From: a virus
Virus record (IMG/VR): IMGVR_UViG_3300007538_006617
Location: 1 to 28,694 of that record
Length of the DNA stretch: 28,694 bases
Direction: 5' to 3' (one strand)
In this document: in pieces, positions 3,557 through 27,253 of the stretch
Layout of the letters: each line of letters starts with the position of its first letter
Numbering within the stretch: position 1 is the first letter of the stretch
The notes under the pieces: model-generated
Told to the model about the DNA's origin: nothing
Seen by the model: the letters and a program-made list of their open reading frames with translations, nothing else
The model's database searches: none
Made by a program: the position numbers and the translations under genes

Positions 3557-5284
3557 TTATGATAATGCTTTTTCTTTCATTACCTCCCCAGCCATGTTCA
3601 TTTTATCCTGAATACCACTTAATGATGGACAAATTAAATCACCAATAAAGTTTTCAAGTTTTTGACCAAACTCAGTGTCCTCAAATGTCTCGATTAATGA
3701 GTTTCTGATGATGTCATAAACAGGGCCCTCCATTCCTTTATCATTTTGTATTTTTCTTACGATACCTTCACCAACTGATTTAGAAATTAAATCACTAAGA
3801 TAATCACATTTAAATATTTTTCCGTTAAAATAATCACCAATAGGTACGTTACCAACCCCAACTACGATTATATTCGCGATATATCCATTAGGGTCCATTG
3901 GAGTTAATTTCTCGACTAAAAATTGCGCGAATCTTTCTTTTAACGTATTAAAGATACCTTCACCAGCGTTACCAAAAAGACCTTTAACAATATCCATGAA
4001 TCCTTCAGTAACTAGTGTATTATTAAAACCTTGCGAGTTTAAATAAAACATTTCATAAATTAAGTCATCCGCAAACTTTTCTTTTTGTTTTTTTGTTTTT
4101 GGTTTTCCTGATTCAGCAATAATTTGAAATCTTTTTTGGATTATATTATTTTCTTCGATTAACGCTTTTTTTTTACCTTCAGATAACTCATTTAAGTTTT
4201 CTCTAATAATTTTCTTTAAGATTGATTCTCTAATTTGGGATTCACTACCAGTTGATAATTTGTAGCTAACTGTAGTACCATTTCTAAACTTATATGTTGG
4301 GAAGTACTGTAGTTCAGCTAACTTTTTACTAAAGCTTCTATTGAACAAATTATCTTTTTTAATTGTTACATCATCTCTACATACAACAAGATAGTCTTTA
4401 GCAGCATCAACCTCATTTTGCGGAATAGGTAATTTCTTTTGTGCCGCTTCATAATAATTTGTAATTAATCCTTGGCAAGCCTCTTTAGTCGCACCTTGTT
4501 CAATCTGTGCAGTAAAATTAACAATGTTGGTATATATAGGGTTTTCTTTAACCCCTTTAGCACCAACCTTTTCTTTACATAATTTTACACCACTAACTTC
4601 TTTTTGGTCAATAGAGGCTGCTCCAGCGATTAAATCTTGTGACGTACATTCACGATACCCCATTGTGTTAACCCAATAGTCTATAGTATCAGTCACATTC
4701 GCACCTTGACTACAAACCCAAATATAAGGAGAACCTTTTTCCATTAATGATTTAACATCAGCTCTAGAACCTAATTCTTTTTTAGTTGCAATAAAGTCAC
4801 TTAACTTAGTTAATTTACACGTACCATTTACTTTATCTGTATTCTTAACATTTGTATCACCATAAGTATAAATTCTAGCTATTTTAGAAGTTGTAACGTC
4901 ATTAACAAACGTCCTTAACTCTTCATTCATACCATCTTCAACTAATTTTCTCAAGAATGCACAATTCCATTTATAATTTCCAGGGCTCTTTTTAGTTAAC
5001 CCTGAATCCCAATATTCTAATTTACCCTCAGATTCACCAGCGTTTTGTGGGAAAATTTTAACCATAGGGTATCCTGATATTTTTTTAGAATTTTGGAATA
5101 ATAATAACGTACCTTCTTGTCCAAAATCATAAGCTATAGTGTCTTGTGGAAAACAACCTGAAACAAATGCGGTTTTTAAATCTCCGTTAGGTATTTTATT
5201 TGCTTCTTTATTTGATGTTCCATCGTTATTTAAACCTTGTTCTATTAAAACTTTTTTAACTATTTTTGAAATATTGTCTTTCAT
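3557..5284 (-). CDS. Putative virion protein with N-terminal cleavable-type leader (575 aa)
   Basis: I do not recognise a characterised family. The N-terminus MKDNISKIVKKVLIEQ is a basic amphipathic helix ending in L-I-E-Q at residues 13-16, like other leaders in this window. Residues 20-340 are mixed alpha/beta with many cysteines (SGCFPQD, NCAFL, WVCSQG, ECTSQD, KLCKEK, EACQG, VVCRDD). Near residues 348-367 a second copy of the leader-like pattern appears (IRESILKKIIRENLNEL), followed by a helical C-terminal domain with hydrophobic stretches (GYIANIIVVGVGNVPIG). This suggests a two-domain precursor, possibly processed. A TATTTATA element lies 12 bases upstream of the ATG. Virion membership is inferred from the leader and from neighbours. 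Confidence 0.7.
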   Translation of the reverse strand: MKDNISKIVKKVLIEQGLNNDGTSNKEANKIPNGDLKTAFVSGCFPQDTIAYDFGQEGTLLLFQNSKKISGYPMVKIFPQNAGESEGKLEYWDSGLTKKSPGNYKWNCAFLRKLVEDGMNEELRTFVNDVTTSKIARIYTYGDTNVKNTDKVNGTCKLTKLSDFIATKKELGSRADVKSLMEKGSPYIWVCSQGANVTDTIDYWVNTMGYRECTSQDLIAGAASIDQKEVSGVKLCKEKVGAKGVKENPIYTNIVNFTAQIEQGATKEACQGLITNYYEAAQKKLPIPQNEVDAAKDYLVVCRDDVTIKKDNLFNRSFSKKLAELQYFPTYKFRNGTTVSYKLSTGSESQIRESILKKIIRENLNELSEGKKKALIEENNIIQKRFQIIAESGKPKTKKQKEKFADDLIYEMFYLNSQGFNNTLVTEGFMDIVKGLFGNAGEGIFNTLKERFAQFLVEKLTPMDPNGYIANIIVVGVGNVPIGDYFNGKIFKCDYLSDLISKSVGEGIVRKIQNDKGMEGPVYDIIRNSLIETFEDTEFGQKLENFIGDLICPSLSGIQDKMNMAGEVMKEKALS

Positions 5285-5296
5285 ATTCTTTTTTTT

Positions 5297-5304
5297 TATA
5301 AATA
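5297..5304 (-). promoter_or_regulatory. TATTTATA element before the 575-aa gene
   Basis: TATTTATA on the minus strand, 12 bases before the ATG at 5284, in the short gap after the upstream gene's stop. It belongs to the recurrent element described in the findings. Confidence 0.45.
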
Positions 5305-5317
5305 TTATTATTAATAA

Positions 5318-6553
5318 TTAAAGTTCGTCGCCCGTAACAATATTAGGTATAAAACTGTTGTCGTCATCTGTCGATGAACCTCCACAATTTTTAATAATTT
5401 TATCATATACATCTTTAGTAATTGTTGTAGGATAACCCTTATCAATTAATTTACCTTCAGTTTCAGGTCCATAACAACCATCTACTTTAGCACCAATACA
5501 ATTTTGGATTTCTTCAATCTTATCACTCTTACACCATTTTTCCATTGGGAATGAACTACATGGTTTACACTTTGATGTTGGTGGGGGAGGTGGTGGTGGG
5601 GGTACTGGTGAACCACCACATTCAATAATATATTCTTTACTACCAATTGTAATTATTATAGGTCCTTCACCTTCCCATTTACCATCATATCTACCATTAA
5701 GTGATTCACAATCTCCATTATCATAGAATATAGCACCACCAGCAGCATCAACATCATCGTTACCTGTTTTTGTAATAATTAATGCATTATCTAAACCTTT
5801 TTCTTGGATTAACTTAGCGTCGTCACCTGATAGTTTATTTCTTAAACAAGCTGGAAATGGAGATTCTTCATTCGAGGTTAAGTATTGCCACAACCAATAT
5901 AAAATACCCGCACCAATTAAATATTTAATAGCCTTTTTGTATGGTAAATTTTTAATTTTATCCCACCATGGTGGTCTATTTGGTATAGGTGGTGGTGGGG
6001 TAGGGATAGGGTCTGGAACAGGGTCTGGAACTATCTTCTTACCACCTTTTTTCAAATATGTGTCCGCCAATAACTCAGCTTCTTCTCTAGTATATTTAGT
6101 GTCTTGTAATAATCTTTCTACAATCTGTTCTCTACTTTTTCCAGCGTATTTTTCTCCAAATTTACCCATAGACGTGATTGCTTCAGCACCTGCAGTTCTC
6201 ATCTCTAAACTACTTCCTCTTAAAAATAATGTTTTAGCCACTTCACCAGTTCCTGAAGGTCCTAATTTACCTAATCTAACCGCTTCTAATACATCAGCGG
6301 TTTTAGTTAACTTAACACCATCTACAGTAACCATATTTTTCCAAGTAGCAGTTCCTTCTCTAAACCCACCCTCAAGACTTCTCAAAGCGGCTTCACTATC
6401 TCTACTCATAACTTTAGACATATCCTCTAAAGCAACTTTCCAAAGTTGTTCACTTAATAAAGATTCTGTATTTTCAGTTAAAGTTTTTTTAGTGTCATAA
6501 CCCATAAGTAATTTAACTCTGGTTAATTCTTCATTTATAATTTCTGTTTTCAT
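5318..6553 (-). CDS. Membrane-anchored protein with C-terminal peptidoglycan-binding-like domain
   Basis: A 411-aa protein. I take the ATG at 6553 because an upstream in-frame start would run back into the neighbouring gene, and the leader MKTEIINEELTRVKLL then sits at the N-terminus as in sibling proteins; an L-L-S-E-Q site follows at residues 32-36. A helical domain (40-170) leads to a Pro-rich hinge (176-195), one hydrophobic membrane segment (about 208-225), a beta-rich domain, a run of eight prolines near 318-325, and a C-terminal block IEEIQNCIGAKVDGCYGPET that matches the PG_binding_1 fold. It probably contacts peptidoglycan during infection or lysis. Start and domain reading are fairly secure; role is inference. 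Confidence 0.7.
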   Translation of the reverse strand: MKTEIINEELTRVKLLMGYDTKKTLTENTESLLSEQLWKVALEDMSKVMSRDSEAALRSLEGGFREGTATWKNMVTVDGVKLTKTADVLEAVRLGKLGPSGTGEVAKTLFLRGSSLEMRTAGAEAITSMGKFGEKYAGKSREQIVERLLQDTKYTREEAELLADTYLKKGGKKIVPDPVPDPIPTPPPPIPNRPPWWDKIKNLPYKKAIKYLIGAGILYWLWQYLTSNEESPFPACLRNKLSGDDAKLIQEKGLDNALIITKTGNDDVDAAGGAIFYDNGDCESLNGRYDGKWEGEGPIIITIGSKEYIIECGGSPVPPPPPPPPTSKCKPCSSFPMEKWCKSDKIEEIQNCIGAKVDGCYGPETEGKLIDKGYPTTITKDVYDKIIKNCGGSSTDDDNSFIPNIVTGDEL

Positions 6554-6566
6554 ATTTTTATTTTTT

Positions 6567-8015
6567 TTAAAAGAGACCAATTTGTGCAATTTCAGTATCA
6601 CTTAATTGATTTAATCGATTAACATTTTCTTTAGATGTTAGAGATTTTTTTGCTGCCTCAACATCTTCAGGTGTTACTTCACCGCTTTCAACTTTGTGGT
6701 GACAGGTCCATCCATCAAGACCTAATGCCGCACATAATGCACCAGTTAATATTATTGTTTGACCTGTTTTTTTAGCGACAACAGGCCATGGTTTAGTAAA
6801 TTTAAAGTCTTTAGAAAATTGTTTAAGTCCTTTACCAGCATCAGAAAGTTTGGTACCCGCTTTTTGAATTAACCCTGGTTGTTTAACGGTCGCGAGTTCA
6901 GCACTTTTAGTTGTTGCACCACCTAATTCTTGTACTGTTTTTTCCATGAATGAAGTGGCTTTAGTTCCAAAATTTTTTAACCACGTAATACCTAATTTTT
7001 CACCAATCCAAGTCGCAGATTTACCGATAAAACCAACTATTTTAGAAATACCTCCCTTAAGTAAATTTACCGCTTTAGCCAATACACCACCTTTTTTTGC
7101 CGCAGCAACCGCTAATTCAGCACCACCTTTAATACCTCTAAGTGCCCCTCTAAGTATTCCACCCAAAGCGGGTAATAGTAGACATACCGCATCAATAATA
7201 ATATCCGCAAAACTCCATTTGTACTCACCACTTTCGTATTTTCCACTTAACATTTTATAAACGTCCCAAATAAGTAGACAACCAAAAACAATACTATCAG
7301 CAATTTGACCCACACCTGGTATAAAAGTAACTGCGGTCATAACACCCATACCAACAGCTGAGAAGACGGCACTTCTAAGTCCTTCCATTAAACACTCAAC
7401 AAAGTTATTAGTTAGACAGTTCCAAGCTTTTGAGACTGCGTTTTTAACTGAATTCCAAACGTTTTTGGCTTTATCAATTCCCCATTGTACAAGTCCTTTT
7501 TGTTTAATTTGTTTTGCTTGGTCTTTAGTCCAATCGACAACACCCTTAGCTTGGTCTCCAATCCATTTACCAGCTCTTTCAACACCACCTTTCCAATCCC
7601 AAGAAAATGGATTGTACCAAGCTTCTAAAAGAACTTTAAGACTTTCCCAAGATTCATTAATACGGGATTCAACAATTAGTTTGTCAACAGATTCATTAAT
7701 TAACAATAGTTTAGAACCAAATTGTTCTTCCCATTCTTTAATAATGCTAACATTATTTTTTAATTCAAATATTTCTAACAATTGGTATAAAAACTTTCTA
7801 GATGAATTCGCGTATTCTGTTAGAGATATTTTATTTAATTTGTAGTAAAGTTCTTTGTGTTCTTTTAAAATATCAATGGCTATTGGTAAATTTTCAAAAG
7901 TATAATTAATAACATTTCCGTTATTTTGGAAATAGTCACCTGTTTGCACCATTCCTCTATTAGTAAAAATATACTTAAGGTTTTCGGATACTCCTTGAAA
8001 TTGTAGTGCACTCAT
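6567..8015 (-). CDS. Hydrophobic helical protein, possible membrane-active ejected protein (482 aa)
   Basis: I do not recognise a specific family. Residues 1-130 are a soluble helical region containing LLINES and RINESWESL. From about residue 130 there are amphipathic Trp/Lys-rich repeats (WIGDQAKGVVDW, KQIKQKGLVQWGIDKAKNVW). A central hydrophobic core (VGMGVMTAVTFIPGVGQIAD, then ADIIIDAVCLLLPALGGILRGAL) resembles the IPGVG-type segments found in pre-toxin and pore-associated regions of polymorphic toxins. Gly/Ala/Lys-rich helices follow, then a short Cys-containing membrane segment. This would suit a protein ejected with DNA that breaches the host envelope. A TATTTATA element lies 18 bases upstream of the ATG. 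Confidence 0.65.
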   Translation of the reverse strand: MSALQFQGVSENLKYIFTNRGMVQTGDYFQNNGNVINYTFENLPIAIDILKEHKELYYKLNKISLTEYANSSRKFLYQLLEIFELKNNVSIIKEWEEQFGSKLLLINESVDKLIVESRINESWESLKVLLEAWYNPFSWDWKGGVERAGKWIGDQAKGVVDWTKDQAKQIKQKGLVQWGIDKAKNVWNSVKNAVSKAWNCLTNNFVECLMEGLRSAVFSAVGMGVMTAVTFIPGVGQIADSIVFGCLLIWDVYKMLSGKYESGEYKWSFADIIIDAVCLLLPALGGILRGALRGIKGGAELAVAAAKKGGVLAKAVNLLKGGISKIVGFIGKSATWIGEKLGITWLKNFGTKATSFMEKTVQELGGATTKSAELATVKQPGLIQKAGTKLSDAGKGLKQFSKDFKFTKPWPVVAKKTGQTIILTGALCAALGLDGWTCHHKVESGEVTPEDVEAAKKSLTSKENVNRLNQLSDTEIAQIGLF

Positions 8016-8066: not shown

Positions 8067-8303
8067 TTATAATAAAGTATTTGCTTTACCTCTTGCAATT
8101 CCATTACCATTCCATTTTTGTTGTTCGGGGTTATAGGTTGGACCAAATTTTCTACCACTACTCCACTTGGTTACGGTGGGGTATGTACCACCGCCGCCAC
8201 CACCAGAATTAGAGGTTGCGTCTTGTTCACCAATTTCACCATTACCATCGCTTGGGGTAAATTCTTTCATTAATGAAATAATATAGTCTACATCGGTTCT
8301 CAT
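8067..8303 (-). CDS. Small glycine-rich hypothetical protein
   Basis: A 78-aa protein: an N-terminal helix (DVDYIISLMKEF), a disordered acidic segment, a six-glycine run, and a C-terminal part rich in Trp, Tyr, Asn and Gly (KWSSGRKFGPTYN, QQKWNGNGIARGK). No family is recognised. It has its own TATTTATT element only 3 bases before the ATG (8307-8314) and follows a terminator of the upstream gene, so it is probably a separate transcript. If the element is a promoter, translation might instead begin at Met12. Low complexity makes homology hard to judge. Confidence 0.55.
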   Translation of the reverse strand: MRTDVDYIISLMKEFTPSDGNGEIGEQDATSNSGGGGGGTYPTVTKWSSGRKFGPTYNPEQQKWNGNGIARGKANTLL

Positions 8304-8750: not shown

Positions 8751-9281
8751 TTAATTATATTTTTTAAATCTATTAAAAATATCAATTGATTCTTGGATAT
8801 TAAAAGAGATTTCACCCATTTCGTCTTCGTCAAAATCATCACCAAAAACATCTTCTTCCCAATTATCCTCATAATTATCGTCATCATCCAAATCATGGTC
8901 AAAATATTCACCATCAGTTTCAGGACTCATTAATACCATAATTTCATTTTCAGTATCATCTACATCTACAGTTCCGTTTGGTAAATCGTATGGACCGTCA
9001 CCAATCATATCTAATTTTTCACCTAAACTCATATAGTATTCATCATCAACGATATCCTCATTTTCTGTAACACTTTCATTTATACCCATATTCCTATAAG
9101 TCATAACATCACCTTGATTGTTAACAGTAATACCACCCTTATCATTGGCGTAATCTTGGGTATATAATGGTTGCATGTTTGAAGTAACATTATTTGTTGC
9201 ATAACCATTATACAACTCTTTGTGTTTGTCGAGGATATTTTCTTTCTCCTCATTATTCATCTTGAAAAAATATGCATTCAT
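8751..9281 (-). CDS. Acidic protein with NEEKENIL-type N-terminus
   Basis: 176 aa from the ATG at 9281; a second in-frame ATG at 9260 gives MNNEEKENILDKHKELYNGYAT, which fits the E-E-K-x-x-I-x-x-x-(H/L)-Y leader pattern of other proteins here better and may be the true start. The middle contains VTENEDIVDDEYYMSLGEKL; the last third is extremely acidic (HDLDDDDNYEDNWEEDVFG). A TATTTATA element lies 14 bases before the first ATG. I read it as a probable virion or head-associated small protein on the basis of the leader only. Confidence 0.6.
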   Translation of the reverse strand: MNAYFFKMNNEEKENILDKHKELYNGYATNNVTSNMQPLYTQDYANDKGGITVNNQGDVMTYRNMGINESVTENEDIVDDEYYMSLGEKLDMIGDGPYDLPNGTVDVDDTENEIMVLMSPETDGEYFDHDLDDDDNYEDNWEEDVFGDDFDEDEMGEISFNIQESIDIFNRFKKYN

Positions 9282-10377: not shown

Positions 10378-11013
10378 ATGAACAAAACCATTTTAATAAA
10401 CGAGGGTCAAAAAAAATTGATTTTAAAAGAATCAATTAATGATAGTTTTGGAGAAATAATTAAAGGTAGTTATGAATTTACCAAAAAAATTATAAAAATG
10501 TCTTCAGAACAAATGGGTATGAATTTAGAATTCTTACTAACATGGGGAGCTAGTATTGGTGGTTTTGTCGGTCCATTAAACGATTTTATTGCAGGTAAAT
10601 TCCCTGAATTAAGTGATATGGAATTAAGTTTAATCATAACTGGTGTTATTTCGCTATACTATATTGATAATAAAGAAACCGTAAAAAAAATATTAGGTAA
10701 AATAAAAGAAGTAGGTTTGTATGATGAATTTGGCGTATTACTTAAAAAAAGTGGTGAGTTAAAAAGTACGTTTGTTGATTTTATTACAAGTTTAAATATA
10801 ACCCTACATAAGGTAACAAATATTATGTCTTATGCATTTATAATACCAATTATACCAATAATTTATGAATCAGTTAATAGTGGTGTTATAAGTTCTTCAG
10901 ATTATAAAGAAATTGCGTTAAGACTAAGTTCTTTTGGTTTGTTAACCGTTGCTGGTGTTTTAGTTAGAGAGTTGTTTGGTAAATTAATTAAGAGATTTAG
11001 TAATCACCGTTAA
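10378..11013 (+). CDS. Membrane protein with LINE-type leader, possible holin
   Basis: 211 aa. The N-terminus MNKTILINEGQKKLILKES carries L-I-N-E and L-K-E sites like the leaders of other proteins here. Hydrophobic segments follow at about residues 55-75 (LLTWGASIGGFVGPL), 82-95 (LSLIITGVISLYYI), 147-165 (IMSYAFIIPIIPIIY) and 183-198 (LSSFGLLTVAGVLV), so three or four membrane spans are likely. Multi-span phage proteins of this size can be holins or head/tail membrane components; I cannot choose. It overlaps the convergent gene by 17 bases. Confidence 0.65.
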   Translation: MNKTILINEGQKKLILKESINDSFGEIIKGSYEFTKKIIKMSSEQMGMNLEFLLTWGASIGGFVGPLNDFIAGKFPELSDMELSLIITGVISLYYIDNKETVKKILGKIKEVGLYDEFGVLLKKSGELKSTFVDFITSLNITLHKVTNIMSYAFIIPIIPIIYESVNSGVISSSDYKEIALRLSSFGLLTVAGVLVRELFGKLIKRFSNHR

Positions 11014-14224: not shown

Positions 14225-14776
14225 TTAAATGAACGTTATGGAGACTTTAAGGTCTCCATTTCCTTTTATAACTCTATGAAAAACTCCTTCAGGAATTAAA
14301 TAACTTTTACCAACCTCTAAAATAACGGGTAATTCGTTATCTAGTTGTACCTTCCAGTTATTAGATTCTAAAACCTTAACAATTCGGTCTTCTTTATCTC
14401 TGTGCCACTTTAATTCACCATCGTCAACAGATTCGGTAAAAACTCTAATTTTTTTATCTTCACTAATGGTTTCTTGATAAGGAGTTTTATCCTCAAACCA
14501 AACAGGTGTTTGATAATTAATAATGACTCTTGAAGATACTGAATCTTCACCCCCAAAATCTAACCCCATATAAACATAATGTTTAATAATCTTTTCAATT
14601 GTTTTATCATTAGTTTGCGGTTCGGTCTGAACAAATACAACAATTTCTTTGTATTTGTTTTCTTTTATGTTATCAATAGTCAATACAATGTCCTCGCCAG
14701 TTAAATCTTTAATTTTGGGCTCCGCAAATTTTGTTAAATAAGCTTGAACGATTCTTTTTAATACTCTGTTTGACAT
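14225..14776 (-). CDS. Conserved phage protein with cupin-like C-terminal domain
   Basis: 183 aa from the ATG at 14776, which shares a base with the upstream stop (TAATG). The N-terminus (SNRVLKRIVQAYLTKF) is an amphipathic helix like the leaders of neighbouring proteins but without an (I/L)xE site. The C-terminal third, LKWHRDKEDR, then VGKSYLIPEGVFHRVIKGNG, follows the two-motif layout of a cupin, with His in both motifs as possible metal ligands. Catalysis or sugar binding is possible but not shown. It abuts the IMPDH/GMPR-like gene with no spacer, and its 3' end contains a hairpin that may terminate that gene. Confidence 0.65.
   Translation of the reverse strand: MSNRVLKRIVQAYLTKFAEPKIKDLTGEDIVLTIDNIKENKYKEIVVFVQTEPQTNDKTIEKIIKHYVYMGLDFGGEDSVSSRVIINYQTPVWFEDKTPYQETISEDKKIRVFTESVDDGELKWHRDKEDRIVKVLESNNWKVQLDNELPVILEVGKSYLIPEGVFHRVIKGNGDLKVSITFI
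14238..14259 (+). terminator. Hairpin terminator embedded in a convergent coding tail
   Basis: Perfect 8-bp stem ATGGAGAC / GTCTCCAT with a 6-base loop, then TTTCCTTTT on the plus strand. It starts 14 bases after the stop of the IMPDH/GMPR-like gene but lies inside the last codons of the opposing cupin-like gene. Confidence 0.65.
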
Positions 14777-15351
14777 TACCAATAACCCCCATAAGTTTTA
14801 CCGCCCCATAAATGACCGTATCTATTAATTCTACACGCCCAATACCCTGCAGTCATTCTATCTTTTTTAGCTTTACAATTGTGTCTAGATGCAAAAGCCT
14901 TTCTAGCCTTTGGGTTTGAGACTTTAGCGGTTAGTCCTCCATGGACATCACCAAACGAGATTTTCTTTACTTTTTTAGTGGATGGGTTTTTAACATATAC
15001 CACATATTTTTTACCACCACCTGAATTTCTCATAGGTTTTCCTAATTGTACTTTTCTACCTTGGTATTCAGCCTCATTGATAGATTCCTCAATATAGGGT
15101 ACCTCTAATCTAACTATTTTACCTGTCGATAATTTAACTTGTTTTCCAAAATCAGACTCAACTAACCATCTATCATCTAAACCAATTTGTATTAAATTTT
15201 TATTATACAAATTTCTAACTTCATTAATTAAGTTAAAAAAGTTTTCAGAATATGGTCTATAAACGTTTTCGGTTAAAGATAAACCTTCATTTAGATGAAA
15301 CTCTAATTCTTTAGATATTTTGGTTTCTGTTATTAAATTTAATGGTGTCAT
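14776..15351 (-). CDS. Conserved phage protein with RHNC/WAC C-terminal domain
   Basis: 191 aa from the ATG at 15351, chosen because it follows the previous stop by one base (TAAAATG); an upstream start at 15390 would overlap that gene. The N-terminus holds several (I/L)xE sites (NLITET, FHLNEG, SLTENV). The C-terminal 90 residues, KKYVVYVKNPSTKKVKKISFGD, then ARKAFASRHNCKAKKD and YWACRIN, match a small domain recurring in large phages and giant viruses, with conserved His and Cys residues that may bind metal. The basic character suggests nucleic-acid or structural binding. Function is unknown. Confidence 0.7.
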   Translation of the reverse strand: MTPLNLITETKISKELEFHLNEGLSLTENVYRPYSENFFNLINEVRNLYNKNLIQIGLDDRWLVESDFGKQVKLSTGKIVRLEVPYIEESINEAEYQGRKVQLGKPMRNSGGGKKYVVYVKNPSTKKVKKISFGDVHGGLTAKVSNPKARKAFASRHNCKAKKDRMTAGYWACRINRYGHLWGGKTYGGYW

Positions 15352-15678: not shown

Positions 15679-16185
15679 ATGAGTAAGTTTATAATTAACG
15701 AAAAAGAAATTCGTAAGATTGTTAGAAAATACATCTTAGAACAAGTTAGTCCAAATGGTGAGCCAGAAAAAAAACAAAGATGTGTTTCACGTAATGTAAT
15801 TCCATTAAATGATATGGTAGGTCCATCCGATAGTTTTAAACCATATGCTGGTAAACTTTTAAGGAGAGATGGTGGTATTAATGGTATGACAGATACATTA
15901 GATATGTTAAGAACTTTGAGGTTACATCCTGACATTAATGATGGTGGAGAACATTTATCTTATAGTTTAATGAACCATTTAAATAAGTTTAGAAATAAAA
16001 ACTATTTTGACGAAACAAATGGTGGGTGTGTTAAAGCAATGGACAAAGTAATAGAGCTTTATCGTGAAAACGAACACGGTGAAGAGTTAGTTAAGGATAT
16101 TGAAAAAGTTTTAAAACACAATGACCCCACTCCAAGGGCAAAAGAATATCTAAAAAGATGTCTTGTGTTAGTTAAAGAAAAATAA
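15679..16185 (+). CDS. Hypothetical protein with IINE / ILEQ leader
   Basis: 168 aa. The N-terminus MSKFIINEKEIRKIVRKYILEQ combines both leader hallmarks: I-I-N-E at residues 6-8 and I-L-E-Q at 19-22, with a basic helix between. If cleaved after Glu21 the mature protein would begin QVSPNGEPEKK. The rest is helical and soluble, with repeated charged helices (YSLMNHLNKFRNKNYF, KVIELYRENEHGEELVKDIEKVL, RAKEYLKRCLVLVKEK). No family is recognised; virion assignment is inference from the leader. Two tandem hairpin terminators follow. Confidence 0.65.
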   Translation: MSKFIINEKEIRKIVRKYILEQVSPNGEPEKKQRCVSRNVIPLNDMVGPSDSFKPYAGKLLRRDGGINGMTDTLDMLRTLRLHPDINDGGEHLSYSLMNHLNKFRNKNYFDETNGGCVKAMDKVIELYRENEHGEELVKDIEKVLKHNDPTPRAKEYLKRCLVLVKEK

Positions 16186-17794: not shown

Positions 17795-18676
17795 TTATAA
17801 ACTCATTAACATGTCCATTAATTCCTGTTGTGGGAACATATCCACTTTATCTTTTCTAGTGTTTGTGTGTGTCCACAAACCTTTTACTTTTCCATAATAC
17901 GCATTTTCATTAAATTCAAAAGCGTCTGCCCCTTTTTCTTTAACTAATTCAGGTAAACCAGCTCTTACATCAATACTATCTCTTTCACCAATCCATAAAA
18001 TCCATTTATGTAATTTACTAATTTGTGCGTCTGAATATCGGTGCCAAGTTTTATGTCCTCTAAAAGGTTTTGATAATTCCACAATTTGTGATTCTACAAC
18101 TGGTGTTCCTTGATACGCCTTTCCGTTAACAACATACCCAAAGTTACATACTTCAATAGCAACTGAGTTTTTGTGCATTTTTTGAGAACCGTTAGCCCCT
18201 AAATGCCAACCATAGTTTCCTTCAGGGAACGCTTGGACCATTTCTCCATCGTATTTGTCGTCGTTTCCTTTAATTGAAGGCCCTCCTAATACGAATTCAG
18301 TTGCAATCGCGCCCCTATTATCTTTACCCCAATTGTTAATTGTATTGTAAGGGTTATGCCAACCTGCCGTGTGGTGTAAGAACACCCATTCAGCATTAAT
18401 AGGACCTTGTTTATATTCACCTATAGGTAAAAAGTGTCTATGAATCACCAAACCATTTTCTGTGGTATAAACATTTTCTGACAAATCTGTAGTTGCTAAC
18501 CCCATAGCGTCCCATGTTTTAGGTCCCACAATACCATCAGGTGTTAATCCATTTTTCTTTTGCCATTTTTTAACTGCAGCATCTGTTTTAGGCCCAAAAT
18601 CACCATCAGTGTTTAGTCCGAGAAACTCTTGGAGTTCTTTAACTTCTTTTCCTTTACTTCCGAGTTTTAAAATCAT
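17795..18676 (-). CDS. Endolysin: PG_binding_1 plus N-acetylmuramoyl-L-alanine amidase
   Basis: 293 aa. Residues 3-60 are a peptidoglycan-binding domain (VKELQEFLGLNTDGDFGPKT, WQKKNGLTPDGIVGPKTW). Residues 95-285 are a type-2 amidase/PGRP domain: VFLHHTAGW supplies zinc ligand H101, GLWTHTNTRKDKVDMFPQ supplies H270 and probably D279, and WHLGANG and NSVAIEVCNFG are core strands. It should cleave the amide bond between MurNAc and L-Ala to release progeny. There is no signal peptide, so it needs a holin for export. A TATTTATA element (18691-18698) lies 14 bases upstream, and the terminator at 17765 follows. Confidence 0.92.
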   Translation of the reverse strand: MILKLGSKGKEVKELQEFLGLNTDGDFGPKTDAAVKKWQKKNGLTPDGIVGPKTWDAMGLATTDLSENVYTTENGLVIHRHFLPIGEYKQGPINAEWVFLHHTAGWHNPYNTINNWGKDNRGAIATEFVLGGPSIKGNDDKYDGEMVQAFPEGNYGWHLGANGSQKMHKNSVAIEVCNFGYVVNGKAYQGTPVVESQIVELSKPFRGHKTWHRYSDAQISKLHKWILWIGERDSIDVRAGLPELVKEKGADAFEFNENAYYGKVKGLWTHTNTRKDKVDMFPQQELMDMLMSL

Positions 18677-18926: not shown

Positions 18927-19757
18927 TTAGACCGCCAAAACTTCTAGATTATTTAGTTCATAAGCTCTCGCCATACGAGTCATTCCAATACCACCACCAA
19001 AACGAGGAAAGAAGGTGAAAGATAAGAACTCTTCTAATTCTTTCTCAACTCTTTCTTTACCAAATAGTTCAAACAACTTGGCGGAATAACCGCCATCTTC
19101 GATGGTATAAAACATATTTCTCATTTCTTCAACATTACAACTTCTTTCCGCAGAACCAATAGTTTCTTGACCAAATAGTATAACATCAACTTTATTAAAT
19201 ATTCCGTTTTTATCGTGTTTCATATTCCAAAATGGGTTTGTTCTTAATGGAAAATTCTGTAATGACACAACCGAACTTTTTTCTTTCCACATCCTTGTTT
19301 CGTGTTCATCTTCTAAAATAGGTATTCCACCATATTCTTGACAAACCTCATCATAATTAACTTCAATTATATCATCATCAAAACCAAGATGATTTAGTAA
19401 ATCATTTTCTAATTTAATCAAGTCTTTCATAGTACCTTTTGATTCGAACTCAAACATTGGGAAAATTAACTCATGCCTGCCAGGGATTGGGTTTTTTTCT
19501 TCTCGATATGAAGTTGATACGCAGAAAACTCCATTCCATTCAGGGTTTTTTAACAATTCATACTCTAACCACATTTGACCTGTTTGAGGTAGTGGCCAAA
19601 TTAATCCACCATACTCAAATGTTTTAACTGAATGCGGATTTTCACACGCAGCTAAAATCGATAATCTAGATTGTGTTGGTACCTCAACAAAACCTTTCTC
19701 TAAGAAGAACTCTCTCATCTTCTGTACTAACTCGTTGTAAATTTTTGTGTTTTTCAT
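18927..19757 (-). CDS. AsnRS/AspRS-like catalytic domain without anticodon-binding domain
   Basis: A 276-aa class II aminoacyl-tRNA synthetase-type core. Motif 2 is SYREEKN with R85-x-E87, followed by HELIFPMFEFE; motif 3 is GGGIGMTRM with R261; WPLPQTGQMWLEY resembles the substrate-loop region of the Asx/Lys subgroup. The usual N-terminal OB-fold for the anticodon is absent. Stand-alone proteins of this kind include the archaeal asparagine synthetase AS-AR, derived from AsnRS, so ATP-dependent asparagine synthesis, or amino-acid transfer to a non-tRNA target, is more likely than tRNA charging. Its upstream leader contains a terminator-like hairpin. Confidence 0.8.
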   Translation of the reverse strand: MKNTKIYNELVQKMREFFLEKGFVEVPTQSRLSILAACENPHSVKTFEYGGLIWPLPQTGQMWLEYELLKNPEWNGVFCVSTSYREEKNPIPGRHELIFPMFEFESKGTMKDLIKLENDLLNHLGFDDDIIEVNYDEVCQEYGGIPILEDEHETRMWKEKSSVVSLQNFPLRTNPFWNMKHDKNGIFNKVDVILFGQETIGSAERSCNVEEMRNMFYTIEDGGYSAKLFELFGKERVEKELEEFLSFTFFPRFGGGIGMTRMARAYELNNLEVLAV

Positions 19758-22636: not shown

Positions 22637-22643
22637 TTAAAAA

Positions 22644-23241: not shown

Positions 23242-23266
23242 AAACCCCTCCCACAAAGAGGGGTTT
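23242..23266. terminator. Intrinsic terminator between convergent genes
   Basis: AAACCCCTC / GAGGGGTTT stem with a 7-base loop. A T-run follows on the plus strand. It lies between the ends at 23216 and 23271 and may serve both strands. Confidence 0.85.
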
Positions 23267-23270
23267 TTTA

Positions 23271-23501
23271 TTATTCTTCAATTTTGTCGTCTTCTTTAAA
23301 GAAATTTGTTAAGAATTTACCAACAACACCTAATAGTATTGACGATATAATCATTGATTTCAACTCGATAGTGGTAAAAATATCTTTTAGGTTGTCAAAT
23401 TGCCACAACCCACCAATTGATAAGACTGTTGCTGACGCTAAAAGAGAGTCCCCAATTCTTCTCCATTTTTTAGGAGTCGGTTTCCAATAATTACTCATCA
23501 T
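23271..23501 (-). CDS. Small two-span membrane protein, holin-like
   Basis: 76 aa (a second ATG one codon later is possible). A polar N-terminus YWKPTPKKWRRIGDSLLASATVLSIGG leads into the first hydrophobic helix. A second helix, MIISSILLGVVGKFLTNFF, ends in a charged tail KEDDKIEE. The KWRRIGD...GKFLTNFF layout is common in small proteins of Bacteroidota phages and suits a holin or head-tail membrane anchor. A TATTTATA element (23519-23526) lies 17 bases upstream, as for the amidase. Holin function is inference. Confidence 0.6.
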   Translation of the reverse strand: MMSNYWKPTPKKWRRIGDSLLASATVLSIGGLWQFDNLKDIFTTIELKSMIISSILLGVVGKFLTNFFKEDDKIEE

Positions 23502-23541
23502 ATTTTTTTACCTTTACTTATAAATATTTTAACATGTCTTA

Positions 23542-23676
23542 TTATCTTCCTTGACCTCGATATTTTTTTGGTTTCTCCTCTTTAGGTCCAAATTTCTTTT
23601 TTAATTTACCAACACTTTTTTTACCGAATGATGTTTTCATCGAATTAGATGAACTTAATTTACTTCCTTTAGCCAT
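23542..23676 (-). CDS. Small basic protein MAKGSK...RGQGR (44 aa)
   Basis: A short gene encoding MAKGSKLSSSNSMKTSFGKK, then SVGKLKKKFGPKEEKPKKYRGQGR. It is rich in Lys, Arg and Gly and probably disordered, likely binding nucleic acid. The AKG...FGKK...KYRGQGR pattern recurs in very small proteins of Bacteroidota and their phages. A TATTTATT element (23710-23717) lies 33 bases upstream, just after a terminator. Composition and reading frame agree with a real gene. Confidence 0.6.
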   Translation of the reverse strand: MAKGSKLSSSNSMKTSFGKKSVGKLKKKFGPKEEKPKKYRGQGR

Positions 23677-23732
23677 TTTAATATTTTAATTTATTGTTTA
23701 TTTACACCAAATAAATATAAATTTAATTAAAA

Positions 23733-23761
23733 AAAAAGTGGGGATAAAATCCCCACTTTTT
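23733..23761. terminator. Bidirectional intrinsic terminator
   Basis: A 13-bp perfect stem AAAAAGTGGGGAT / ATCCCCACTTTTT with an AAA loop, the strongest hairpin in the window. It ends the 66-aa gene at 23836 on the minus strand. Confidence 0.9.
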
Positions 23762-23773
23762 CATATATATAAA

Positions 23774-23815
23774 GGCTCTCGCAATGAGAGTGATAGTTAT
23801 TATAAATATATCACT
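23774..23815. other. Two adjoining hairpins in a 74-base gap
   Basis: CTCTC / GAGAG (23776-23780 and 23786-23790) is followed by AGTGATA / TATCACT (23789-23795 and 23809-23815) with a T-run after it. They lie between the 66-aa gene and the bidirectional terminator and may be extra 3' structures of that transcript or a small RNA. Confidence 0.35.
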
Positions 23816-23835
23816 TTTTCTAAAAAATCAATGTT

Positions 23836-24036
23836 TTAATGCCACCCACCAATAATTTTTTGTAAATCAAACATCATTGATTTCATATCAGTATTCATGT
23901 TTTTTGGTGAGATTTTTTTAAGTTGCTCCATTGAGTCAAACATTTTTAATCCGTATTTTTTCCACCATCGATTAACCATGTAAGTCATTGTAATTAAAAC
24001 TACTACTAAAATTGTTAAAATAATATTTAGGTACAT
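23836..24036 (-). CDS. Small N-terminally anchored membrane protein (66 aa)
   Basis: Residues 3-22 form one hydrophobic span (LNIILTILVVVLITMTYMV) followed by a positive stretch NRWWKKYGLK and a soluble helical tail (FDSMEQLKKISPKNMNTD, MMFDLQKIIGGWH). The topology predicts an inner-membrane anchor with the tail in the cytoplasm. No family is recognised. It is followed by hairpins and a strong terminator; no TATTTAT element is visible before it. Confidence 0.55.
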   Translation of the reverse strand: MYLNIILTILVVVLITMTYMVNRWWKKYGLKMFDSMEQLKKISPKNMNTDMKSMMFDLQKIIGGWH

Positions 24037-24119
24037 ATATTTTTTTTATTAAGTATACACAATAATAACCCACATGTCAAATAGATTGATTAAGTTATTT
24101 TTTAAATTATATTTAAATT

Positions 24120-24389
24120 ATGAAAAAATGTTTAGAGGTTTTACTTAACAAAATTTTTAAAAAAGATTTAGAATTACTTTTTGGTAATGGTAGTATAATC
24201 CACGTTAATAGTTGTAAATACTCAACTAACAATCTAACATTTGTAATTGATTGCAAAATTTTAGTTTCAGATGTTAAATTAACAGAAGAAGTCTATCCCG
24301 ACGGTTTAATTATTTTGGTTGAAGACTCTTGGAAATATATGGGTTTTGATGAAAAGATATCGGTTATAACCTCAATTGACCTTCTTTAG
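24120..24389 (+). CDS. Hypothetical protein (89 aa)
   Basis: A small alpha/beta protein: MKKCLEVLLNKIFKK forms a basic N-terminal helix, then strands such as LTFVIDCKILVSDV and LIILVEDSWKYMG. It has the look of a small phage protein with a conserved core but no family is recognised. Its 3' end overlaps the convergent gene at 24364 by 26 bases, the largest such overlap in the window. No promoter motif is clear. Confidence 0.55.
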   Translation: MKKCLEVLLNKIFKKDLELLFGNGSIIHVNSCKYSTNNLTFVIDCKILVSDVKLTEEVYPDGLIILVEDSWKYMGFDEKISVITSIDLL

Positions 24390-24558
24390 AAATCAATCCG
24401 TTATTCACATATTGATAATAAACACTTTCAACAACAGAAATCCTATCCATTTCATTTTTATCTAAAAGTTTTGAGGTAACCTCCGTACTGAATTCATTAA
24501 AGACTCCACTAATGTGAGCAGCCCAATACAATTCTTCAATAATTTCTTCGTTAGTCAT
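24364..24558 (-). CDS. Small helical protein (64 aa)
   Basis: MTNEEIIEELYWAAHISGVFNEF followed by further helices (EVTSKLLDKN, ISVVESVYYQYVNNGLI). Sequence style and start are like small phage proteins beginning MTNEEIIEE. Two possible promoter elements precede it on the minus strand: TATTTATT at 24582-24589 and a host-type TATATTTG box at 24600-24607. No function is known. It overlaps the convergent gene by 26 bases. Confidence 0.55.
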   Translation of the reverse strand: MTNEEIIEELYWAAHISGVFNEFSTEVTSKLLDKNEMDRISVVESVYYQYVNNGLISKEGQLRL

Positions 24559-24599
24559 TATACCAAAGTTTAAATGTGTTCAATAAATATCACTTAAAT

Positions 24600-24607
24600 A
24601 CAAATAT
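24600..24607 (-). promoter_or_regulatory. Host-type -7 box upstream of the 64-aa gene
   Basis: Minus-strand TATATTTG about 40 bases before the ATG at 24558, with a TATTTATT element (24582-24589) between. The gene may therefore be read from two promoter types. Confidence 0.4.
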
Positions 24608-24663
24608 ACGAAAAAGTATTTGATTATTCGAGTGATTATACTTAAACTTATAAAAAAAATATT

Positions 24664-25089
24664 ATGAAACAAATTGAAAATGGTGATAGTGTTAAAGTTC
24701 ACTACACAGGAAAATTAGAGGACGGTACAATTTTTGACTCGTCTATGGTTGAAGGTAGAGAGCCTTTAGAAGTCGTATTGGGTAACAATATGTTGATTAA
24801 AGGTTTCGAGAATGGTCTTATGGGATTAACTGAGGGTGAAACTAAGACTATTGAAATTGAACCTTCCGATGCTTATGGTGAATATACCGAAGAAATGATT
24901 AATGAAATTCCAAGAGCTCAAGTACCTGAAAATGTACAGGTTGGTGAAAGACTCCAAGGAATGAGTCCAATGGGTCCAATCAATGTTCATGTTATTGAAG
25001 TTAAAGATGACACTGTAGTGATTGATGCAAACCATCCTTTGGCAGGTAAAAAATTGACTTTTGAAGTAGAAGTTATTAGTGTTAATTAA
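24664..25089 (+). CDS. SlyD-like FKBP-type peptidyl-prolyl isomerase
   Basis: 141 aa. VKVHYTGKLEDGTIFDSS (residues 10-27) is the start of the FKBP domain. The chain is then interrupted by an insert-in-flap domain (EEMINEIPRAQVPENVQVGERLQGM, about 79-103) and returns with VVIDANHPLAGKKLTFEVEVISV. This is the SlyD arrangement; the His-rich metal-binding tail of E. coli SlyD is missing. It should catalyse cis/trans isomerisation of Xaa-Pro bonds and bind unfolded clients in the cytoplasm. It heads an operon with a membrane protein and a lytic transglycosylase. A phage version would add to DnaK as a folding aid. Confidence 0.92.
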   Translation: MKQIENGDSVKVHYTGKLEDGTIFDSSMVEGREPLEVVLGNNMLIKGFENGLMGLTEGETKTIEIEPSDAYGEYTEEMINEIPRAQVPENVQVGERLQGMSPMGPINVHVIEVKDDTVVIDANHPLAGKKLTFEVEVISVN

Positions 25090-25101
25090 AAACAAATAAA
25101 A

Positions 25102-25416
25102 ATGGAAGAGAAATTAAAATTAATTAAAGAAAAACTTAAATCTATTTTTAAACATACCTTAATTTATTTGATTATAGTATTTGCGGTAATATCGTCATTC
25201 TTTGTTGGTATTTATTACAATGAGGTAACAAAAAAAGAAAAAAAATATGAGGTTACCAAGATTATTAAGGATGAGGTTAGTTTAGCTATTGACGAAAATA
25301 GTAATTTAATCATTATAGAAAATAAAACAGGTGATTATACAATTTATGAAGATTCTGTTGGGGTTTCTATCTTTAGATTATACGCTAAAAACGTCTGGGG
25401 ACAACATAAACAATAG
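25102..25416 (+). CDS. Single-span membrane protein (104 aa)
   Basis: A basic N-terminal region (EEKLKLIKEKLKSIFKH) is followed by a membrane helix at about 18-38 (LIYLIIVFAVISSFFVGIYY), then a soluble domain with two strand-rich blocks: EVSLAIDENSNLIIIENKTGDYTIYEDSVGVSIF. The soluble block resembles a recurring unnamed domain in phages of this type. Located between the SlyD-like isomerase (12 bases) and the SLT (5 bases), it probably acts at the inner membrane or in the periplasm with the transglycosylase. Confidence 0.65.
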   Translation: MEEKLKLIKEKLKSIFKHTLIYLIIVFAVISSFFVGIYYNEVTKKEKKYEVTKIIKDEVSLAIDENSNLIIIENKTGDYTIYEDSVGVSIFRLYAKNVWGQHKQ

Positions 25417-25421
25417 ACATT

Positions 25422-25976
25422 ATGAAAGTTAAACACATTTTTTTATTTGTAGTTTTATTACTCTCAACTTTAGTTGTGGTAAGTCATTTTAATATTACTA
25501 CAATTTTTAAATGTGATAATAATGAAGTGGTGATAGGTGGGTCAGGTGGTTATCCAAAATCACCTGTATCACTTAAAATGTACGATTTACTTGAGAAGTA
25601 TAGTTCTGAGTACGATGTCCCAAGATATATTGCTTACAACGTGGCTTTTTTAGAAACTAGATATCAAGGGCCATTTGATTGGTCATATGACCCATATTTA
25701 ACCTCAAGTGCAGGGGCTGTAGGACCAATGCAAATTATGCCTTCAACAGCAAATTATATTAATAAGAGAAAAATTAACAAAGAAACTCTTAAAAACGATT
25801 TAGAATTGAACATTGAGACGAGTATGAAGTTGTTGAGTAAACTTTACGAAAGGTATGAAAATTGGGGGGTTGTTTGTGGTTGTTACAATACTGGTAGACC
25901 AATAGTTAATGGGTACGCGGTTTTCTGTTCAAGTAATAAAAATTATAGAGATAATTGGATTTACGTAGAAAATTAA
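25422..25976 (+). CDS. Membrane-anchored SLT-type lytic transglycosylase
   Basis: 184 aa. Residues 5-23 are a signal anchor (HIFLFVVLLLSTLVVVSHF). The SLT domain covers about 50-180 with catalytic E78 (AFLETRYQ), SAGAVGPMQIMPSTA and the VCGCYNTG block. It cleaves the MurNAc-GlcNAc bond with 1,6-anhydro product formation, in the periplasm. It may open peptidoglycan during DNA entry or help at lysis. It directly abuts the convergent zincin gene with no spacer. Confidence 0.9.
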   Translation: MKVKHIFLFVVLLLSTLVVVSHFNITTIFKCDNNEVVIGGSGGYPKSPVSLKMYDLLEKYSSEYDVPRYIAYNVAFLETRYQGPFDWSYDPYLTSSAGAVGPMQIMPSTANYINKRKINKETLKNDLELNIETSMKLLSKLYERYENWGVVCGCYNTGRPIVNGYAVFCSSNKNYRDNWIYVEN

Positions 25977-26366
25977 TTATTCGTACATTTTAGGTAATTT
26001 TTTTGGGTTAACCTTCTCAAAAGTTTTAACTAACGAACCAGCTTTAGAATTAGCCTCATCTTCGATAGGACCCCCAATATCGGGTCCTTTTTCTTTGTTA
26101 GAAACACTGAATTGGTGTTCATGTACCCATTCATGTGCTAAAGTTCTACAAATATCTCTATTCATCCTATTTTTAGATAGGACTTTTAACTCATGTTTGT
26201 TGTTACGGCTACCAGTAGACATACCCTCTTTTTTATTACCTAAAAACATGATTGTGATGTCTTCTTTAAGAGGTAACTCATTTTGTAAGAATTTAATAAA
26301 ATTATTAAAAAACTCGTGGTCTTTATGTTTTATACCAGAATGGATATGTTTTACGGTGACTTTCAT
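25977..26366 (-). CDS. Small zincin metallopeptidase (HEWVH)
   Basis: 129 aa. The zinc motif is H78-E-W-V-H82 in RTLAHEWVHEHQF, and a Glu (E102, in PIEDEANSKAG) at the right distance can be the third ligand, as in gluzincin-like minimal peptidases. The N-terminus is a short helical/strand unit (IKFLQNELPLKEDITIMFLGN). Such small zincins are frequent in large phages and may process virion or host proteins. A TATTTATC element (26370-26377) lies 3 bases before the ATG, and a palindrome (26384-26398) separates it from the element facing the GH19 gene. Confidence 0.8.
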   Translation of the reverse strand: MKVTVKHIHSGIKHKDHEFFNNFIKFLQNELPLKEDITIMFLGNKKEGMSTGSRNNKHELKVLSKNRMNRDICRTLAHEWVHEHQFSVSNKEKGPDIGGPIEDEANSKAGSLVKTFEKVNPKKLPKMYE

Positions 26367-26369
26367 AAT

Positions 26370-26410
26370 GATAAATATATTTAACTTATTTAATAAGTAA
26401 GATATTTATT
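26370..26410. promoter_or_regulatory. Divergent TATTTAT elements around a 15-bp palindrome
   Basis: Minus-strand TATTTATC at 26370-26377 and plus-strand TATTTATT at 26403-26410 flank the perfect palindrome ACTTATTTAATAAGT (26384-26398). It could be a shared operator between the zincin and the GH19 gene. Confidence 0.5.
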
Positions 26411-26425
26411 TAAAAAGTATAATTT

Positions 26426-27253
26426 ATGCGTAAAAAATTAATAATCACCGAAGAGGAAAAAAACGACATCAGGGGTTTATATGGACTTGAGAACGAAAAT
26501 AACCCTTTGGCGTTATTATTAAAGGCCGCCTTGGGTGTTAAATCTGATAATAAAACAGATGACGTTAGTAACACCAATAAGAAAGATTCATCTTTAGATT
26601 TCAATACTTCAAATCTAACAACTGGAAATGTTGAATTAAAAGGAAACTTTAATAGTGAACAAGAAAAAGTTATTAAATTGATTATAGACGAAATGGAAAA
26701 ACAAGGGATTAAAGACCCTTTAGCCCAAATTGGTATTCTTTCAGTAATTGATAAAGAAAGTGGTTTTAGAACCTATAAAGAGATTGGGTATGGTGGTACT
26801 TCAGATAGTAGAATTGAAAGTGTTTTTGGTAAGAGAGGAACTAAATGTAAACACCTAAAAAAAGATAACCCTAAGTTTTTTGATTGTGTTTATGGAAAAG
26901 ACTCAGGTGTTAGATTAGGTAACGACCAACCAGGTGACGGATGGAAATATGTTGGTAGAGGTCTGAATGGTATTACAGGTAAAGCAAACTATAGAAAATA
27001 TGGTAATATGATTGGTGTTGATTTAGTAGGTAATCCTGAACAAGCGGAGGACCCTAGAACTGCCGCAAAAATAGCTATCGCATTTTTTACTAAAGGTAAA
27101 CCATCATCTTCTTTCCCTAAATTTAATAGTAAAGAAGATTCTGTTAATTATTTTGCAGATTTAAATGCTGGGAGAGCCAATTCCAAATTCGGTAGAACTG
27201 CTGCTATAGCATCATCAAGTAAGTTTGATGTTGATTATTCTAACTTAGCTTAA
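26426..27253 (+). CDS. GH19-type endolysin with IITE leader
   Basis: 275 aa. The leader MRKKLIITEEEKNDIRGLYGLENE carries I-I-T-E at 6-9. A disordered acidic linker (30-75) leads to a glycoside hydrolase family 19-like lysozyme domain: QIGILSVIDKESGFRT has catalytic E111, and GWKYVGRGLNGITGKANYRKYGNMIG plus NPEQAEDPRTAAKIAIAFF are hallmark blocks. It should cleave the glycan backbone. Unlike the amidase it bears the leader of the putative virion proteins, so it may be a virion-associated lysozyme used at entry. A TATTTATT element lies 15 bases upstream. Confidence 0.88.
   Translation: MRKKLIITEEEKNDIRGLYGLENENNPLALLLKAALGVKSDNKTDDVSNTNKKDSSLDFNTSNLTTGNVELKGNFNSEQEKVIKLIIDEMEKQGIKDPLAQIGILSVIDKESGFRTYKEIGYGGTSDSRIESVFGKRGTKCKHLKKDNPKFFDCVYGKDSGVRLGNDQPGDGWKYVGRGLNGITGKANYRKYGNMIGVDLVGNPEQAEDPRTAAKIAIAFFTKGKPSSSFPKFNSKEDSVNYFADLNAGRANSKFGRTAAIASSSKFDVDYSNLA

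Follow-up and report, generated by a model that had tools for sequence, protein, structure and literature searches.

Why do proteins that otherwise differ begin alike? The question is raised by the virus record IMGVR_UViG_3300007538_006617 of IMG/VR, analysed here over its whole length of 28,694 bases (the window), in which a series of unrelated proteins starts with short leaders that carry or end in an I/L-x-E site. In our view they are likely to be capsid-targeting propeptides like those at the N-termini of T4 internal proteins, here enlarged to a modular system that serves many kinds of cargo; cleavage and packaging are both deduced from sequence.

The window is probably a fragment of a larger phage genome. 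A 47.9-kb contig (G001, the twin) contains it, with proteins 99-100% identical, and a 203-kb contig (G002) largely keeps the gene order of window positions 3.5-16 kb with diverged proteins. The relatives of the window are T4-superfamily phages, since gp23 was found in nine of 12 and an S77 protease over the cut-off in seven of 12. A tblastn search with the G002 capsid protein ranked Microcystis phage Mel-JY01, Flavobacterium phage immuto and Rhodothermus phage RM378 closest among named isolates.

Leaders and their classes

Four recurring leader forms were recognized at protein starts:

Class A: MK(x)IITE(S/N)Q
Class B: MKK(I/V)(I/V)RLTESDLxRIVKRVIxE, or its second half alone
Class C: IITEEEKxxIxxLY
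Class D: LMxYDxxKTLxEN

The candidates in the window are the following (an arrow or the word cut marks a predicted cleavage):

5240-5284, minus strand: leader, residues 1-15 of the 575-residue protein 3557-5284; MKDNISKIVKKVLIE, cut, Q
6449-6553, minus strand: class D leader, residues 1-35; MKTEIINEELTRVKLLMGYDTKKTLTENTESLLSE, cut, Q
7650-7715, minus strand: internal leader-like element, residues 101-122 of the protein 6567-8015; three successive I-x-E↓S sites
8226-8303, minus strand: leader, residues 1-26 of the 78-residue protein 8067-8303; ends GEIGE↓Q ahead of a Gly-rich stretch
10378-10431, plus strand: class A leader, residues 1-18; MNKTILINE↓GQKKLILKE↓S
15325-15351, minus strand: short leader, residues 1-9, on the protein that ends at 14776; MTPLNLITE; leaders swapped in orthologues
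15679-15741, plus strand: class B-like leader, residues 1-21; MSKFIINE, cut, KEIRKIVRKYILE, cut, Q
26426-26452, plus strand: class C leader MRKKLIITE, residues 1-9; match to the held-out profile

Five of these starts (5284, 6553, 10378, 15679 and 26426) formed the basis of the original prediction and all lie in frame where it placed them. It called them basic, which suits four of the five; the remaining one, MKTEIINEELTRVKLL, has a net charge of about 0 by hand count. The protein 8303-8067 and the internal copy in 8015-6567 are two candidates beyond its list.

The sites were conserved within several families. The second I/L/V-x-E site of the 10378 protein was kept in 48 of 48 homologues, with an entropy of 3.06 bits at P2 (the middle residue of the site) and S or A after the site in 39 of 48; in an alignment of 26 sequences E18 was among nine invariant columns and E9 was kept in at least 90%. 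All 22 homologues of the 15679 protein had I/L/V-x-E between residues 17 and 28, and the structure model of this protein (mean predicted local distance difference test score, pLDDT, 78.4) showed a helix at residues 8-23, low confidence at 24-32 and then the folded part. In the 8303 family (n=40), [ILVF]xE fell within match residues 9-36 in 38 members, as [ILVF]xEQ in 35, and in none across the next 28 residues. Relatives of the 5284 protein kept (I/L)xEQ in eight of the first nine non-identical aligned rows, with starts of different lengths, as short as MKLNEQ, and the sites ILKEQ, NINEQ, NIKEQ, KLNEQ and TIKEQ; rows after the first nine mostly began otherwise. An early [ILVF]xE was present in 16 of 27 rows overall. 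At 26426 the second site, LSEQ or INEQ in relatives L014, L067, L005 and L218, was not intact in the window protein.

Two of the weaker starts listed by the original prediction fared differently. The protein ending at 14776, whose true start is probably 15351, gained support: orthologues 64-67% identical carried other leaders at the same spot (LIKKVLTE, LIKKVLKE, IIKKVLQE), one 45% identical had IEKVIKRVLNE, and one 84% identical retained LITE. The protein assigned to 9260 probably starts at 9281 and was dropped as a leader case, an early [ILVF]xE being found in only nine of 60 family members.

In a BLAST comparison among ten window proteins the sole match at E<=0.1 was a 23-residue leader stretch common to the 10378 protein (residues 2-24) and the internal element (48% identity, E 0.03-0.05). 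A similar stretch occurred in homologues L401 and L405 of the latter and not in L335, L368/L324 or L397. Lying about 100 residues into its protein, this element may mark a long propeptide as in SPN3US.

Leader profile and N-terminal specificity

The bare I/L-x-E motif was rejected as too weak a test. Of the 35 window proteins, 8 had [ILVM][ILV]xE in residues 2-25, where shuffled sequences gave 4.3 +/- 1.6 and internal stretches of the proteins 3.6-14.3%, a modest N-terminal enrichment. In T4 (160,000 bases), N-terminal [IL]xE (E by residue 12) occurred in 40 of 247 called open reading frames (ORFs), including those of IPII, IPIII, Alt, gp21, gp22, gp24 and gp68; the motif alone is weak because most of these ORFs do not encode head proteins.

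A leader profile was trained on contigs G002, G005, G006 and G008 after removal of proteins whose mature part resembled any test protein. It was scanned over whole proteins, and matches at N-termini and elsewhere were counted at scores of at least 7 and at least 5. In the window (37 proteins) the held-out profile gave three N-terminal matches (10378, 15679 and 26426) and none elsewhere at the higher score, and three and two at the lower. At a score of at least 7 the N-terminal/elsewhere counts were 8/0 in G001, 6/1 in G002, 11/3 in G005, 12/6 in G006 and 13/1 in G008, and 0/0 in immuto, a relative cultured on Flavobacterium sp. LMO8 in which no leader match was found. Masking of residues 1-2 left 3/0 in the window (also at a score of at least 5), 6/0 in G001, 5/1 in G002, 9/0 in G005, 8/3 in G006 and 9/1 in G008. 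With a later profile, leader-rich contigs had 7-33 matches each; this profile includes three window proteins, so its count for G001 is not independent. Measured by the held-out profile the pattern was clearly commoner at N-termini, and only modestly so for the bare motif. All five leaders belong to a large family of leader modules, three of them as profile matches; the 5284 leader, which resembles the second half of class B, and the 6553 leader, of the different recurring class D, did not match the profile. A 33-residue natural leader searched by tblastn against a public phage collection gave no match.

Chance N-termini in AT-rich genomes rich in I, L, K and E would fit the bare-motif figures in the window and in T4, and could hold for single proteins judged by the bare motif. 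As a general explanation such a composition artefact is highly improbable in view of the N-terminal specificity of the held-out profile and of the class B distribution: a DNA pattern for MKK[IV][IV]RLTESDL was found in at least 120 viral stretches, against one 3.2-kb stretch in 84,980 cellular genomes. The class B and class D counts given below exclude it for those classes. The sole cellular match, L296 (DFKH01000024.1, positions 1436-1729), is on a contig of a metagenome-assembled genome labelled Alphaproteobacteria, where a neighbouring ORF has a leader-like start too, MDIQRIIREEINRFIRE; L296 may be phage DNA that was binned with this genome. When a longer pattern for class C was used, three stretches matched.

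Anatomy of the site

Statistics for classes B and D were taken from the unique proteins of all loci collected (at least 120 loci for class B). That the same kind of segment sits on unrelated proteins was borne out: the 133 unique class B proteins had 106 unrelated mature families, and among ten window proteins the leader stretch described above was the only BLAST match at E<=0.1. The end of the class B leader carried [ILVM]xE in 125 of the 133, against 11 and 5 in two later windows of the same proteins. Residues 14-20 and 22 were conserved though not imposed by the search pattern. Residue 20 was I in 102 proteins, L in 18, V in 12 and S in one; residue 21 (P2) was free (2.69 bits), residue 22 was E in 124, and residue 23 (P1') was again free (3.08 bits, Q commonest), after which conservation dropped to background.

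Class D matches lay at most 48 codons from an upstream stop in 112 of 124 cases. All 86 unique proteins had [ILVFM]xE within 25 residues after KTLxEN, whereas the following 25 residues contained it in 11 of the 86; with Q behind it (xEQ) the counts were 52 and 0. In the 62 proteins measured the site came 3-12 residues after KTLxEN, and P3 was I in 40, L in 12, V in six, M in three and F in one. Other third residues showed no comparable rise between the first and the next 25 residues (D 27/25, N 30/22, S 33/32, T 27/30, K 30/40, G 30/46, A 24/40); Q gave 30/11 and often comes after the E. A site that floats and has a free middle residue looks, for that reason, like a protease site.

At the DNA level, the first 66 nucleotides of the twelve most alike leader-gene pairs of G008 were 70-85% alike. 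Similarity was mostly near background after the leader and low upstream in most pairs (77% over 30 nucleotides in the best).

The leader might instead be a docking or address tag that serves a different phage structure, such as a replication compartment or a cytoplasmic complex, with I/L-x-E merely the end of a helix. The whole class B helix is conserved, not the site alone, as such a tag would have it; the class D site, which shifts position yet is always present, and the middle residue, whose freedom a helix end does not call for, speak the other way, and we regard this explanation as unlikely. Still less probable by far is a membrane-binding amphipathic helix holding proteins at the host membrane. 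RIVKRVI does look amphipathic and basic by eye, and a low-confidence model shows mainly helices for the 10378 protein, but forms such as MKLNEQ are too short for a helix and the normally soluble superoxide dismutase (SOD) bears a leader.

Probable link to the phage head

Substrates of the clade's S77 protease would be expected to share the form of their site with the phage's own gp23, and the form of the gp23 site was that of the leader site in five leader-rich contigs. In the alignment, SFLTE↓A of T4 gp23 stood over FLINE↓A (G002, G005, G008), HLINE↓S (G006), YLINE↓S (G009) and QIVSE↓A (immuto), so that by analogy with T4 the gp23 of this clade would be cut at a FLINE↓A-type site. This match speaks against a docking tag. 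In T4 the gp21 protease cleaves behind L/I-X-E, taking off propeptides that are 7-65 residues long, and proteases of its type act inside proheads (PMC9026906, in excerpt).

The original prediction placed a gp21-like protease elsewhere in the genome. An S77 protease was over the cut-off in most long relatives (besides the seven of 12 above, in 14 of 20 relatives and in 13 of 15 class B contigs longer than 100 kb); it was seen only in relatives since the window is probably a fragment. Two or more leader matches were found in 13 of 15 contigs with S77 against five of 14 without (Fisher p = 0.008). These 29 contigs, some of them near-duplicates and many perhaps fragments, were sampled by an unrelated gene resembling asparaginyl-tRNA synthetase (AsnRS): 10 of the first 12 contigs and 19 further AsnRS-type loci chosen by the length of their contigs, leaving out L001 and L004, which came from other searches.

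In immuto (238 annotated coding sequences) the head block was set as gp087 to gp066, comprising the protease, scaffold, capsid protein and neighbours, with limits first drawn by eye. N-terminal [IL]xE was present in 15 of 20 annotated head-block genes against 46 of 191 elsewhere and, strictly from terminase to capsid gene, in seven of nine against 54 of 202 (p = 0.003), the terminase and portal being without it. An earlier count with simple-caller starts (16/20 against 48/196; 0/5000) was superseded, the contrast being weaker with annotated coding sequences. The enrichment lends the head link moderate support. In four long contigs, the groups of 15 consecutive genes richest in the bare motif included some from within or close to the region that corresponds by orthology to the window.

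On the capsid-targeting reading the leader, a short I/L-I/L-T/N-E segment followed by an amphipathic helix, would bind its protein to the scaffold core while the prohead is being built. Cleavage after I/L-x-E by the S77 protease would then free the mature protein inside the head, where it would be packaged with the DNA, to enter the next host by ejection. The docking step is a conjecture taken from the T4 model; by eye, the start of the G005 scaffold, MSQEIKELVKESLTEQ, is similar to class B.

Predicted cargo

The proteins behind the leaders of the window are predicted to be cargo:

3557-5284, minus strand: predicted cargo behind the 5284 leader; no Pfam or PHROG match at E<=0.1
5318-6553, minus strand: predicted cargo; C-terminal stretch peptidoglycan-binding-like by eye, with no Pfam match over the cut-off and no PHROG match
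10378-11013, plus strand: predicted cargo; mostly helical in a low-confidence model (mean pLDDT 58.3) too poor for a fold search
15679-16185, plus strand: predicted cargo; no confident Foldseek match, best E 0.64
26426-27253, plus strand: GH19-type lysozyme/endolysin domain after the leader; Pfam PF00182 E=1.2e-5 (25.7 bits, cut-off 25.5), PHROG 181 endolysin E=1.8e-34

A second endolysin-type match, 17795-18676 (minus strand), has no leader. From this arrangement 26426-27253 is possibly a virion enzyme and 17795-18676 the lysis enzyme.

We scanned 93 leader proteins against Pfam and PHROG (26426 and 92 chosen by eye from 114 matches to a leader regular expression, 22 doubtful ones being dropped). 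Pfam gave DHH in three, SOD and DUF6576 in two each, and PPK2, PG_binding_1, GH19, OmpA and others in one each. The SOD proteins of G008, G006 and G002 have leaders whose last residues read FFINE↓M, FFLTE↓M or FLLTE↓M where MK(T/K)IGI begins. The SOD of G002 had been taken as leader-less in error: an inner start had been called, and an in-frame leader lies upstream, with no ATG in view. The ORF caller used on the contigs was a simple one and some gene starts are wrong. Just beyond the window, G001 40935-43689 (L121) encodes several small proteins in a row, of which five begin with MK(V/L/I)(I/V)ITE(S/N); the stretch looks like an island of small cargo genes.

The presence of leaders on metabolic enzymes (SOD, PPK2, DHH) would suit a docking tag. 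With lysozyme and peptidoglycan-binding domains among the cargo, and the leader-less protein 17795-18676 available as lysis enzyme, the leaders might also be zymogen propeptides, whose removal activates toxic or lytic proteins without any targeting role. We find this very hard to credit: lytic domains occur in only a few of the 93 proteins, SOD or PPK2 require no such control, and a protease of the gp21 type, acting inside proheads (PMC9026906, in excerpt), would make targeting necessary anyway. The capsid-targeting reading would count lysozyme, superoxide dismutase, PPK2 and DHH phosphoesterase as cargo, together with many small proteins; some cargo could counter host defence by analogy with T4 IPI. 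The T4 internal proteins, diverse defence proteins with only a capsid-targeting sequence (CTS) in common, are the precedent (PMC3012670, in excerpt).

Comparison with known systems

The closest likeness is to the CTS of T4 IPI-IPIII and Alt, short N-terminal segments on unrelated proteins that end in I/L-x-E; IPII and IPIII share MKTYQEFIAE and Alt begins MELITE. The protease family (S77) and the gp23 type are also the same in most long relatives. The leaders here are about 9-35 residues long, often with a conserved helix and two sites, and come in several classes that are swapped among orthologues. T4 cargo is few, the classic proteins numbering about four, against 7-33 profile matches per leader-rich contig. 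The product of T4 gene 61.1 (L173:18966-19130) starts MKTFKEFIKE, close to the IPII/IPIII start, and is a possible overlooked cargo protein.

In phiKZ and SPN3US (gp175/gp245 protease), head proteins of giant phages are likewise proteolytically matured and ejected; the cleavage motif is SxE in phiKZ and AxE in SPN3US, and several SPN3US propeptides exceed 100 residues (PMC5694885, in excerpt). In the leaders P3 is mostly I/L/V, so their sites are not of the SxE/AxE form, and phiKZ gave no match to the leader profile or to PF03420. Phages of Bacteroidetes encoding bS21 and the moraphages, with predicted hosts in Bacteroidota, resemble the window and its relatives in jumbo size and in having a prohead protease, encoded close to the capsid gene or counted among the core genes; the moraphages share DnaK as well; the likeness is by description rather than by tree placement, and the portions of these reports consulted mention no leader family (PMC9723584, PMC12619734).

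Six leader strings were not found in the literature text searched, which covers neither bioRxiv preprints nor most subscription papers. Searches combining CTS with jumbo phages, Bacteroidetes or metagenomes returned work on T4, SPN3US and P1 and no such leaders. We found no published description of the leader-module family in this literature.

Observations against capsid targeting

Several observations weigh against the capsid-targeting reading. Neither S77 nor gp23 was found in the window or its twin, both probably fragments. S77-positive contigs G007 and G037 and six of seven S77-positive named records had no leader matches (the seventh, LR756508, had one weak match), as a docking tag would predict for the named T4-type relatives; the leader family is therefore clade-specific and not a mark of S77. 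Conversely, G001, G012, G019, G020, G041, G042, G045 and G048 were leader-rich with no S77 match and may be fragments. The gp23 of the leader-less G007 and G004 had no site at the aligned column, and the 9281 family has a similar helix with the site missing.

In immuto the densest 20-gene windows (15/20) also start at 97.7-101.8 kb, upstream of the head block, again as a docking tag would allow; 3 of 5000 permutations reached that best-window density, and [IL]xK was raised in the head block too (9/20 against 54/191). At L171/L168 (immuto 97.7-110 kb) [IL]xE is as dense just upstream of the head block as inside. Among jumbo-phage proteins with an annotated immuto homologue, only 1 of 21 head-shell or packaging proteins, a scaffold, fitted the leader regular expression. 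The same comparison as a whole speaks for the capsid-targeting reading, with fits in 0 of 24 tail proteins, in 1 of 35 for DNA metabolism and in 0 of 3 others, and in 113 of 995 proteins that had no such homologue.

The T4 CTS showed no sequence match to the leaders, and the held-out profile gave 0 N-terminal matches in T4 (one elsewhere), and the later profile had none in the T4 record. Being longer and more conserved, the leaders may have another or an additional job. Virion proteomics or cleavage data for these phages were not found in the literature consulted; the consulted part of PMC7077304 (Flavobacterium phages on LMO8 and others) holds no virion proteomics and does not mention immuto.

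The proposal that these are T4-type propeptides cut by a gp21-like protease is thus only partly supported, because cleavage and packaging are inferred, S77 is absent from window and twin, the 9260 case does not hold up, leaders are missing from some phages with S77, and in length (greater) and build they differ from the T4 CTS. What stands are the N-terminal specificity, the site anatomy, the gp23 site, S77 in relatives, the near-absence of the class B tag from cellular genomes and the moderate enrichment of the bare motif in the immuto head region.

Other features of the window and its relatives

PHROG assignments in the window were glycosyltransferases, an HNH nuclease, a dehydrogenase and endolysins; DnaK and FKBP appear to be encoded as well, as read by eye. 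The protein 18927-19757 (minus strand) is AsnRS-like by eye and falls in PHROG 29758, of unknown function. It is very widespread in viral contigs, 592 of 599 pattern stretches being confirmed among the matches listed. Between protease and portal, on the opposite strand, small genes resemble by eye that of ribosomal protein bS21, a feature shared with the published bS21 phages:

G002:130015-130251, opposite strand: bS21-like small gene
G008:194570-194755, opposite strand: bS21-like small gene
G006:66230-66415, opposite strand: bS21-like small gene
G005:44393-44596, opposite strand: bS21-like small gene

Implications

Somewhat more tentatively than for the leaders themselves, we favour the view that this T4-superfamily jumbo clade has a plug-in packaging code. 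Interchangeable leaders, which any gene can acquire, would fill each virion with unrelated proteins by the dozen (enzymes of antioxidant and polyphosphate metabolism, hydrolases of the cell wall and many small unknowns) for delivery before phage gene expression. If this is true, no larger repertoire of injected proteins would have been deduced from sequence alone. Most proteins of these phages have no known role; should the leader prove to be a packaging code, many of them (7-33 per leader-rich contig) can be assigned to the virion with a simple profile. The reading also predicts the cleavage rule of the clade's protease and, if correct, would offer tags to load foreign proteins into large phage heads and would name the proteins delivered at time zero of infection, among them candidate injected counter-defence proteins.

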